Positions 13,227 through 15,714 of a stretch of DNA of 35,209 bases are shown here, piece after piece. How positions within the stretch are numbered: position 1 is the stretch's first letter; each line of letters starts with the position of its first letter. The notes under the pieces were generated by a model that was given only the letters and a program-made list of their open reading frames with translations, was not told the DNA's origin and made no database searches. The position numbers were made by a program, and so were the translations under genes. The DNA comes from Kineosporia sp. R_H_3 (GTDB lineage Bacteria > Actinomycetota > Actinomycetes > Actinomycetales > Kineosporiaceae): contig NZ_MWLL01000143.1 of assembly GCF_002198675.1 (NCBI RefSeq), positions 1-35,209 on the forward strand, read 5' to 3'.

Positions 13227-13972
13227 TCCGGGTCGCCGCCGTCGGGGACGTCCACCTCGCACCGGACGTCGCGGGCCGGCACCGCGCCGGGCTGGAGGGG
13301 GTCGCCGAGCACGCCGACGTCCTGCTGCTCGCCGGCGACCTCACCCGCCACGGGACGCCCGAGGAGGCCGTCGTCGTCGCCAGCGAGTACGCCGACCTCG
13401 GGCTGCCCGTCGTCGCTGTCCTCGGCGACCACGACTACCACAGCGGGGCCGAGGCCAAGGTCGCCGACCTGCTCGTCGAGGCCGGGGTGACCGTGCTCGA
13501 GGGGGAGGGGCTCGTGCTCGACCTGCCCGCCGGGCGGCTCGGGATCGGCGGGGTGAAGGGCTTCGGGCTGGGGTTCGCCGGCCGCTGCGGCAGCGACTTC
13601 GGCGAGCCGGAGATGAGGGCGTTCAGCCGGCACGGCCGGGAGGGCGCCGAGCAGCTCGCGCGGGCCCTGCGGTGCCTGGACGACCTCGACGACGCCGTCG
13701 ACGTCAAGGTCGCGCTCACGCACTACGCGCCGGTCGACGAGACGCTGCTGGGGGAGCCGTCAGAGATCTGGCCGTTCCTCGGGAACTACCTGCTCGGCGA
13801 GGCCATCGACGCCGGGGGCTGCGACCTCGCCGTGCACGGGCATGCGCACGCGGGGCGGGAGAAGGGCATGACGCTCGGCGGGGTGCGGGTCCGCAACGTC
13901 GCGCAGCCGGTGATCCGGGCGGCGTACGCGGTGTACGAGGTGTCGTCGACGCGGGTGCTCGTCGGGCGGTAG
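13223..13972 (+). CDS. Calcineurin-like metallophosphoesterase
   Basis: The 249-residue soluble enzyme has the two-metal phosphoesterase motifs in order: GDVHLA (8-13), AGDLTRHG (38-45), GDHDYHS (68-74, in place of the usual GNHD), THYAP and HGHAHAG. The GNHD Asn is replaced by Asp, which could alter the second metal site. The substrate cannot be predicted; the superfamily covers protein phosphatases, nucleotidases and cyclic nucleotide phosphodiesterases. GTG 13223 overlaps the BON gene stop. The neighbouring minus-strand remnant converges with it. Confidence 0.88.
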   Translation: MIRVAAVGDVHLAPDVAGRHRAGLEGVAEHADVLLLAGDLTRHGTPEEAVVVASEYADLGLPVVAVLGDHDYHSGAEAKVADLLVEAGVTVLEGEGLVLDLPAGRLGIGGVKGFGLGFAGRCGSDFGEPEMRAFSRHGREGAEQLARALRCLDDLDDAVDVKVALTHYAPVDETLLGEPSEIWPFLGNYLLGEAIDAGGCDLAVHGHAHAGREKGMTLGGVRVRNVAQPVIRAAYAVYEVSSTRVLVGR

Positions 13973-13980
13973 CGAGGGGC

Positions 13981-14001
13981 TGCGGGACAGAGCAACCCGC
14001 A
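13981..14001. terminator. Hairpin between convergent genes
   Basis: TGCGGG at 13981-13986 pairs perfectly with CCCGCA at 13996-14001 across a 9-nt loop. It sits in the 32-bp gap between the phosphoesterase stop and the kinase-remnant stop and could act in both directions. There is no T tract. Confidence 0.4.
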
Positions 14002-14004
14002 CAG

Positions 14005-14346
14005 TCAGGTGACGCCAAGGTCGGTGAGAAGGCGCCGGGCGTCGTCCAGGCCCTTGGTGTTCTCGGCCGGGTCGATGCCACCGGTGAGGTCGTCCGCGGC
14101 GACCCGCCCGGCGAAGTACACGCCCTGGACGGCGGCCCGCACGCGGCGGAACAAGTCGAGGTGCCGCAGCTCGCCGGCTCCCGCGACGAGGTCCGCGAGC
14201 GCGGTCGCCGGCACCGACTTGGCGACGTAGGTCGACCCCTGGTGCTCGACCGACCAGGTCCGGGAGTTCATGCCGCCGGTCAGCGGCGTGATCCGGGCCC
14301 CTTCGATGCCCCAGAACGTTGCGAGGGCCTCTTGGAGGTCTGCCAT
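14005..14346 (-). pseudogene. Internally deleted aminoglycoside phosphotransferase-like kinase
   Basis: The 113-residue frame begins like a phosphotransferase (APH/choline kinase fold): ITPLTGGMNSRTWSVEHQG, then TYVAKSVP with a possible ATP-binding Lys43. It ends like the C-terminal helices of such enzymes (RRVRAAVQGVYFAGRVAADD, ENTKGLDDARRLL). The whole central lobe is missing: there is no HGDxxxxN catalytic loop and no metal-binding DxD, and full-length relatives are nearly three times longer. The junction appears to fall near residues 60-66 without shifting the frame. The ATG retains a good GAGAAGG ribosome binding site, so a short protein may still be made. I read it as a deletion remnant; a dedicated small protein is the alternative. 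Confidence 0.6.
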
Positions 14347-14424
14347 CGGCGCACCTTCTCATGTCATGCCACACGCTCGACGAGCTGCTCGCGGGCCGGC
14401 GCTCCGGCGGCGGCCCCCGGGGGA

Positions 14425-14477
14425 TGCACCCACGGCTGCACGGGCACCCGCGTCGCGGGCGTGCACCGATGGGTGCA
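14425..14477. repeat. Inverted-repeat element, copy 1
   Basis: The left arm TGCACCCACGGCTGCACG (14425-14442) pairs imperfectly with the right arm GTGCACCGATGGGTGCA (14461-14477). The 18-nt spacer contains its own palindrome (CCCGC-GTC-GCGGG), so the unit can form one long hairpin. Confidence 0.8.
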
Positions 14478-14507
14478 GCTGCGCGGGTGCTCCCACCCCG
14501 CTGATCC

Positions 14508-14559
14508 TGCACCCACGGCTGCACGGCGCGTCGGGAGCGGCCGTGCAGCGATGGGTGCA
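14508..14559. repeat. Inverted-repeat element, copy 2
   Basis: The left arm is identical to that of copy 1 (14508-14525). The right arm CGTGCAGCGATGGGTGCA (14542-14559) is complementary to it at 16 of 18 positions. The 16-nt spacer differs from that of copy 1. The two copies lie 83 bp apart, start to start, in the same orientation. Confidence 0.8.
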
Positions 14560-14706
14560 GCGGGACGGGTGGACTGGGGATGCACTGGGCACGACCCCGT
14601 GGACCACCCGCACCGGGCGCGTTCGCACCGCACTCCCGCACCCCGATCCTGCCCGGGCGTCCGCCGCGACCCGCGCTGCGGCCGACGAGCCTGCGCCGTT
14701 CCGAAC

Positions 14707-15714
14707 CTACGGAGCTGCCGGTCCGAGACCGGTCCGTGCGTCCCCGCCGAGGTGGTCCTCGAGGAGCGCGAGGGCGCCCGCGGCGGCGGCCGTGAGAGCC
14801 GTCGGCGGCCGGCCCGCCCAGAGCGTGGCGAGGGCGGGCGGTGTCAGGGGCACGATCTCGAGCGTCTCGAACTCCTCGCCCGCCAGGAGCTCTGCGGCAT
14901 CCGGGCGGCGGTCGACGGCGGCGAGGTCGAGCAGGACGACGACGTCCGGGCGCAGCCGTGCGAGGTCGGTGACGAGGCCGAGCACCCGGAGCGACGCCTC
15001 GACCTCGCCCACCGTCCGGTGCACGCCGAGCTCCTCGCGCAGCTCCGTGGCGACCGTCGTGGCGAGGTGCCGGCCGTCCCCGGCGGGCTCGAGCATCCCG
15101 GACGGGGCGACGTGCCAGCGGCCCGGATCGGTCCCGACCCGGGTGCTCCGCAGACCGAGGACGACGCCCGTCTCCCCGTGGGGACCGTCGTCTCCAATGC
15201 CGGTCCGGACCACGAGCAGCACCGAGACCCCGAACGCGGCGGCACGGCCCGTGCCGCTCGTCGTCGGGTCACCGGCGACCTCGTGCGCGCGATGGCGCAG
15301 CGGCAGGTCCGCGAGCGAGGTCGGGTCCGGCCGATCGTCCGTGCCGTCACCCGAAGCGGCTGCAGCGCGGACGATCTCGTCACGCACGGCGTCGCACGTC
15401 GCGAGCATGTCGAAGTACCCGCCGGGCACGACGCGGACCACCGCCCCGCCGGAGCCGCCCGCACCGTCCGGTGTCTCGACCCGGTCCAGGCACAGGACCG
15501 CCCCGTCGTGCACCCGCCCGCCGGCGCGCAACCCGTCGAGGAACGGCCGGCCGCCCTCGGCGAGCACCGCATCCACCACCCGCGGCCGGTCGTCGAGGAC
15601 GACACGGGCCCCGGGCAGTCGCCGGGCGGCGACCGGGTACGTCGCGCCGGCCCGGTGGACGAGGCCCGGCGTCCCGGCGTACAGCCGCGCGAGGACGGCG
15701 AGCGGGTCGGTCAC
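14707..15714 (-). CDS. Nudix hydrolase-like protein with degenerate box
   Basis: The 335-residue protein has a Nudix-like segment at about 205-250: WHVAPSGMLEP, a gap, then ATELREELGV. The consensus REUxEExGU appears as TELREELGV with the first Arg replaced by Thr. The metal-binding Glu pair is kept. An N-terminal region of about 170 residues (RVVLDDRPRVVDAVLAEGG, DRVETPDGAGGSGGAVVRVVPGGYF, then ATCDAVRDEIV) is not one I recognise and may position a large substrate. A hydrolase of nucleoside-diphosphate derivatives is a family-level guess; activity is uncertain. Start is GTG 15714 with GGCAGG about 8 nt upstream. The inverted repeats follow its stop and could terminate its transcript. Confidence 0.7.
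   Translation of the reverse strand: MTDPLAVLARLYAGTPGLVHRAGATYPVAARRLPGARVVLDDRPRVVDAVLAEGGRPFLDGLRAGGRVHDGAVLCLDRVETPDGAGGSGGAVVRVVPGGYFDMLATCDAVRDEIVRAAAASGDGTDDRPDPTSLADLPLRHRAHEVAGDPTTSGTGRAAAFGVSVLLVVRTGIGDDGPHGETGVVLGLRSTRVGTDPGRWHVAPSGMLEPAGDGRHLATTVATELREELGVHRTVGEVEASLRVLGLVTDLARLRPDVVVLLDLAAVDRRPDAAELLAGEEFETLEIVPLTPPALATLWAGRPPTALTAAAAGALALLEDHLGGDARTGLGPAAP

Follow-up and report, generated by a model that had tools for sequence, protein, structure and literature searches.

What are the repeated arms at positions 14425-14559 of the window, and have they anything to do with the shortened kinase gene that lies beside them? The window, that is the whole stretch of 35,209 nucleotides of Kineosporia sp. 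R_H_3 DNA analysed here, had been read in an earlier note as carrying at this position two tandem inverted-repeat elements of about 52 bp with shared arms, similar to REP/BIME elements, directly before a deleted kinase gene. The locus was compared with the rest of the R_H_3 genome (G000), with that of Kineosporia sp. A_224 (G001), with a third genome of the genus (G002, 88% complete) and with further genomes of the family; contigs and loci of these genomes are given below by their C and L numbers.

Organisation of the window locus

Four copies of an arm of around 17-19 bp are present at 14425-14559; the first and third are right-type, the second and fourth left-type. The two TGCACCCA...TGGGTGCA pairs are found where they had been placed, at 14425-14477 (53 bp) and 14508-14559 (52 bp) with a spacing of 83 bp, and they are beyond chance. 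When the locus was set beside the rest of the genome, however, these pairs proved to be out of phase with the unit whose length is constant, which is formed between them by the second and third arms. This is a 64-bp palindrome at 14461-14524 (plus strand) with arms GTGCASCGATGGGTGCA / TGCACCCACGGSTGCAC about a 30-bp centre; its 17-bp left arm, GTGCACCGATGGGTGCA, and 17-bp right arm, TGCACCCACGGCTGCAC, face the opposite way to the arms of the pairs first described. Its register and length are those of 23 of the 24 full copies in two species, and the family model introduced below matches it at 14458-14527 (E 3e-16, where E-values are rough and the window copy is itself one of the 13 training copies).

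The first and fourth arms are half-units that flank the 64-bp unit, one on each side. The left half-unit (a right-type arm at 14425-14443, plus strand, the first arm of the first 52-bp unit) is identical over 19 bp to 14508-14526 and lies in a partial model match at 14398-14444. The right half-unit (a left-type arm at 14541-14559, plus strand, the last arm of the second 52-bp unit) belongs to a stretch, 14537-14571, that is 86% identical to 14455-14489 and gives a partial model match at 14539-14571 (E 1e-4). Each of the 52-bp units is thus made of one arm of the 64-bp unit and one adjoining half-unit, and half-unit, unit and half-unit together form a composite of about 150 bp (14414-14562, no strand assigned).

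The 64-bp phase is preferred because its length is constant, and not because the other arrangement is missing elsewhere. Pairs of the latter type occur in at least seven cases in R_H_3; at 41-54 bp they are less constant in length but non-random (53 and 52 bp in the window, 54 and 53 bp on C98, where there is a local duplication, 53 bp on C164, 44 bp on C38 and 41 bp on C261), and the 53-bp pair on C164 stands without any 64-bp unit. The genome search for the gapped pattern that the earlier note had proposed gave four places in the 7.26-Mb R_H_3 genome, the two of the window and two further ones, both on contig C98, against none for the reversed control. The stretch 14400-14580 had no match in the plasmid collection or in the phage collection, and an element borne by a plasmid or phage was rejected on that ground.

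To the left lies an APH-family (kinase-like) gene (14005-14346, minus strand), which is a neighbour and not part of the element. Its 113-aa product has suffered an in-frame internal loss relative to a 292-aa protein of A_224 that matches PF01636: residues 1-54 and 57-110 align with residues 1-54 and 239-292 of this relative, so that some 180 residues are missing, and the short protein itself gave no Pfam match. The deletion suspected earlier is therefore real. Its junction, however, is near 14174, so that some 250 bp separate it from the closest arm; it is then no evidence of a deletion driven by the element, and that reading was rejected. A metallophosphoesterase gene also lies on this side. 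On the right, the composite is adjoined by what appears to be a relic of a DUF222/HNH-type gene, from its 3' end (14588-14698, plus strand), one frame of which resembles by eye the C-terminus of ORF L161:1795-3648, an ORF that matches DUF222 and HNH; a Pfam search of 14582-14698 gave no match, and stretches similar to 14588-14698 occur at at least eight places in A_224. A NUDIX gene lies beyond it. In A_224 the two flanks of the window locus are found apart, the left on C22 and the right on C205; because C205 ends there, in the tail of a DUF222/HNH gene, the split may reflect a breakpoint or an assembly gap alike.

A 64-bp palindrome family in two Kineosporia species

A sequence-only model of the 64-bp unit (family 1), built from 13 copies including that of the window and with a background that starts near E 0.07, was used to search the genomes. 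In R_H_3 it found 13 full copies, spread over 10 places, with partial copies at two more (C38 and C164), on 11 contigs in all, and in A_224 11 full copies at eight places. These were the only two of 13 Kineosporiaceae genomes with matches; none was obtained in the other 11 (G002 and 10 more). The absence of other copies in this or related genomes, which would have counted against the earlier view, is thus not what was seen: copies occur elsewhere in R_H_3 and in its sister species, and they form the genome-wide, mostly extragenic palindrome family that had been foreseen, with tandem arrangements of alternating arms (the extragenic placement being judged from crude ORF calls). The 18-base arm with up to 3 mismatches matched 62 and 64 times on the two strands of R_H_3, as against 93 and 92 times for the reversed control, and since the control gives more, such matches are noise; matches with 0-1 mismatch are mostly members of family 1, a few lying in other sequence (for example on C240 and C269).

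When the species genome collection, from which the genome under study was perhaps excluded, was scanned for the exact pattern, 13 stretches were returned: four in A_224, four in one Kineosporiaceae metagenome-assembled genome (MAG), one in an Actinomycetales MAG, two in Cellulomonas composti and two in Serratia. In the Kineosporiaceae MAG the family-1 model aligns over 64 bp at five places and over 62 bp at one, with different centres; the aligned length is 63 bp in the Actinomycetales MAG and mostly 61 bp in C. composti, and therefore a near-constant unit length extends beyond the genus. One of the two C. composti stretches is a tandem array of related units (L051:2825-3490) with a period of about 148 bp and five model-matched units. 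All eight viral contigs that fitted the pattern (L171-L178) carry one related kind of sequence with 46-55% GC; the two Serratia stretches (L047 and L050) look like them, and both groups were treated as unrelated to family 1. These phage and Serratia sequences hold closely spaced GGGTGCA / TGCACCC repeats, which to our eye resemble iterons within the replication gene of an enterobacterial phage. Among the papers listed, none dealt with a 64-bp family of this kind by title or abstract opening, and a search with the arm string gave none on the topic by title among the matches listed.

Locus by locus, five of the eight A_224 places sit at R_H_3 loci that also bear units (one of these, C38, only degenerate units), so those copies must have been resident for a long time. 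At one shared locus (L039/L099), where the flanks are nearly identical, the differences counted by eye fall on 3 of the 34 arm positions and on 12 of the 30 in the centre. The size of the array differs at others: C239 has two units where G001:C211 has one, and C175 has one where G001:C216 has two. Furthermore, the unit of C42 is absent from the matching locus G001:C191, and the array of C98 is absent from G001:C132, which has another repeat array in its place (L124:4230-4340), made of 12-bp CGGTCATCGGCT- / GACCGAGCCGAT-like repeats whose core is GGGGT/ACCCC. These repeats formed no further array in the fetched sequence, and elsewhere they gave only scattered matches with 2-3 mismatches. The whole-genome look-up of counterparts left out the R_H_3 places on C164, C206 and C261 and the A_224 places on C53 and C230. 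For the differences in presence and absence, loss of ancestral copies is as good an explanation as movement.

The window composite itself was also found at another locus in the sister species. Its closest match, at G001:C189:11216-11366, is 88% identical over 151 aligned positions, the centre included. The C189 locus aligns end to end with G000:C258, where only a remnant is left, and hence is not orthologous to the window locus. The same composite at two non-orthologous loci means dispersal, or duplication with differential loss; no clean transposition event was seen.

Proposed recognition as duplex DNA and the alternatives

Conservation within the unit was measured on the 24 full copies of the two species, 23 of which enter the figures; the partial units (C38, C164 and the half-units) were left out. 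The one copy that departs from 64 bp is 63 bp long. Taken pairwise, the copies have a mean identity of 0.88 over the arms and 0.54 over the centre, compared with 0.31 expected from composition, and a GGG-G core opposite C-CC is retained in the centre; the copies were oriented by their better-scoring strand, which may inflate any left/right asymmetry. No covariation was detected between facing arm positions: 84.6% of the cells are paired, as against 86.6% after shuffling (the observed value was equalled or exceeded in 494 of 500 shuffles), two cells show double-sided changes where shuffles give 5.5, and pairing summed over the 17 arm positions is 14.0 compared with 14.26 under independence, in a test whose power is reduced by kinship among the copies. 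The dyad is thus kept as sequence and not as base pairs, and we therefore read it as a probable site of duplex-DNA recognition.

The placement of the units was compared with that of 2000 random points for family 1 and for a second, 76-bp family described below. Of the 20 family-1 places, 19 were entered (all but C261, which lies at the start of a contig) and 18 tested; for family 2, 26 of 58 copies were tested. Twelve of the 18 places and 21 of the 26 copies have an ORF 3' end no more than 60 bp away, compared with 486 of the random points, and 6 and 11 respectively have one on both sides, compared with 26. The reading frames used were defined as stop-free, which is crude in GC-rich DNA, so that only the contrast with the random points counts; L039, for example, was scored as convergent, where its flanks look divergent by eye. 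The window unit is one of the six family-1 places with no ORF 3' end within 60 bp. Enrichment of this kind fits REP-type repeats and bidirectional terminators alike.

On balance, it is somewhat more likely than not that the composite of the window belongs to a small, REPIN-like family of interspersed, non-autonomous palindromes that are recognised as duplex DNA by a putative protein of non-RAYT type, though our preference for this reading is a modest one. Such a protein, possibly a transposase or recombinase, would hold both arms at a fixed spacing of about six helical turns, and this recognition would keep arms and spacing constant. Copies would spread seldom and persist where they do little harm, and arrays would lengthen or shorten through recombination between arms; the full unit of the window with a half-unit on each side would be what remains of such turnover.

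The conserved arms, the fixed length, the saturating centre and the lack of covariation would also be expected if the units were binding sites of a resident DNA-binding protein (a regulator, nucleoid protein or insulator) that grips two arms at a fixed spacing, and were functional rather than mobile. The disparity between arms and centre within the nearly identical flanks of L039/L099 is consistent with this, and the full-copy number of only 13 could also come from a regulon of such sites. We nevertheless think it unlikely, since the sites lie mostly by ORF 3' ends and not by promoters, differ between sister species, occur in tandem arrays and as half-units, and include one 150-bp composite at two loci.

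That the units act as bidirectional transcription terminators, or as RNA hairpins at 3' ends, is very doubtful. The potential hairpin is stable and units of both families are enriched between ORF 3' ends, but the base pairs do not covary and the window copy, with 5 of the 17 other tested places, has no ORF 3' end within 60 bp. A search for T-run terminators gave no site in 13900-14800 (terminators that lack a U-tract fall outside it), and no Rfam family was matched in 13800-15200, the best hit being RF04011, a miRNA model, at a chance level of 21.5 bits against a cut-off of 100. An origin of the dyad in RNA structure is likewise disfavoured by the lack of covariation and of an Rfam family.

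The REP/BIME-like label first given to the locus is apt for the layout, which is extragenic and interspersed with alternating arms, and is not borne out for the machinery. Enterobacterial BIME arrays are also tandem with alternating arm orientation; their copy number is far higher than that seen here, their arms are unrelated to those of family 1, and no TnpAREP was found in these genomes. The Y1-type (RAYT) transposase gene that the label led one to expect was not found: PF01797 had no match in R_H_3 or in either of the other two genus genomes (drafts with completeness of 100, 100 and 88% for G000, G001 and G002), in a search that did find it in five of the 14 control genomes, among them E. 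coli. Membership of a RAYT-borne REP family was rejected on this ground. The GT[AG]G motif is absent from the hairpin foot, the consensus ending in GGCC...GGC (unit ends only were searched, shifted feet lying outside the search), though GTGG does lie within the reverse complement of most family-1 right arms; and no compensatory hairpin changes are supported in family 1, where kinship of the copies limits power. Inverted conserved arms about a fixed spacer and interspersed extragenic copies at many loci are present. With the three other tested features of RAYT-borne REPINs not found, family 1 is not filed as REPIN in spite of this REPIN-like layout.

As described in PMC3116915, REPINs are inverted doublets of conserved arms of about 16-17 nt with a less conserved spacer of fixed length, extragenic, with tandem clusters and singlet remnants, all of which is true of family 1 (its inverted arms being of about 17 nt); they are accompanied by RAYTs, compensatory changes are common in those of Pseudomonas, and REP doublets in strain SBW25 are counted in hundreds. 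The Kineosporia family differs in that no RAYT was found in the genus, and in having no GT[AG]G ends, no compensatory changes and 13 full copies. Most tnpAREP subclasses have GT[AG]G feet nearby, according to PMC6006769. A classical RAYT-borne REPIN or BIME that has lost its RAYT, or whose RAYT gene the draft assemblies fail to include, is for these reasons highly improbable. The CGTC-tagged palindromes described in PMC3733652 also form dimers and reportedly lack a dedicated transposase, a further likeness to the palindromes here; the family-1 consensus has no CGTC at its ends, and its unit is longer and fixed at 64 bp. The same paper also refers to REP-like families without a tag from other bacteria. 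The word Actinobacteria is absent from its main text, though it does name M. tuberculosis.

Further palindromes in the genus

An inverted-repeat scan of 1.06 Mb of fetched R_H_3 and A_224 sequence, followed by clustering of the arms, gave a second family, a 76-bp palindrome of the form CCGCTCATGCTCGCG-N3-GGTACCG-N26-CGGTACC-N3-CGCGAGCATGAGCGG that is present in all three genus genomes. With 150 candidates scored for each genome and hits on either strand included, a model of seven copies matched 106 times in G000, 55 times in G001 and 63 times in G002, and had no match in 10 other Kineosporiaceae genomes. Examples with the fixed length of 76 bp are L149:5833-5908, L139:9-84 and L147:10380-10455, and copies often lie between convergent ORF ends. 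Part of the model matches, 59 copies, was taken for measurement and one was skipped at a contig end. The anchor spacing is 72 bp in 54 of the 58; the other four (66, 66, 66 and 78 bp) also give 72 bp once the outer arm is re-anchored by eye. Among the 54, from which identity and pairing were calculated, identity is about 0.9 in the arms and 0.44 in the centre, compared with 0.29 expected. Along almost the whole of the arms, pairing is no different from that under independence; centre positions 24-27 and 29 show a mild excess (0.59 as against 0.42, for instance), which is a hint of a weak hairpin constraint there. MITEs have a similar short, non-coding and interspersed layout with inverted terminal repeats; the palindromes here differ from them in that no target-site duplication was seen in 53 family-2 copies.

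A bolder proposal, decidedly speculative, is that several families of duplex-DNA palindromes, unrelated to one another and each of fixed length (64 bp, 76 bp and possibly more), are present in the genus. Each would sit between convergent genes with a protein of its own holding both arms, and the complex would act there as a roadblock to, or an insulator against, transcription or replication that converges on it; spread and retention would then come about through that protein and not through a RAYT and a single-stranded hairpin. REP-type repeats are usually attributed to RAYT transposases acting on single-stranded hairpins, and a genus with two fixed-length palindrome populations, no RAYT found and non-covarying arms offers a test case for REP-like repeats recognised as duplex. 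The shared and unshared sites of the two Kineosporia genomes permit a direct test of spread by duplex recognition.

A k-mer count for additional families was dominated by codon bias. Two more repeated palindromes were observed in the fetched sequence, one with arms CTTTGCTCTGCC (seven places) and one with arms CACAGCTTCGTCGTTGC (six places, one of them in A_224); the former brackets the latter at several places, forming a larger composite (L041:5031-5180, L149:16995-17155, L159:18699-18970 and L165:447-730). There is also a long, near-perfect palindrome around ACTAGCGCGTATGACCC, with one copy each in A_224 and R_H_3 (L094:4755-4813 and L156:13917-13975).
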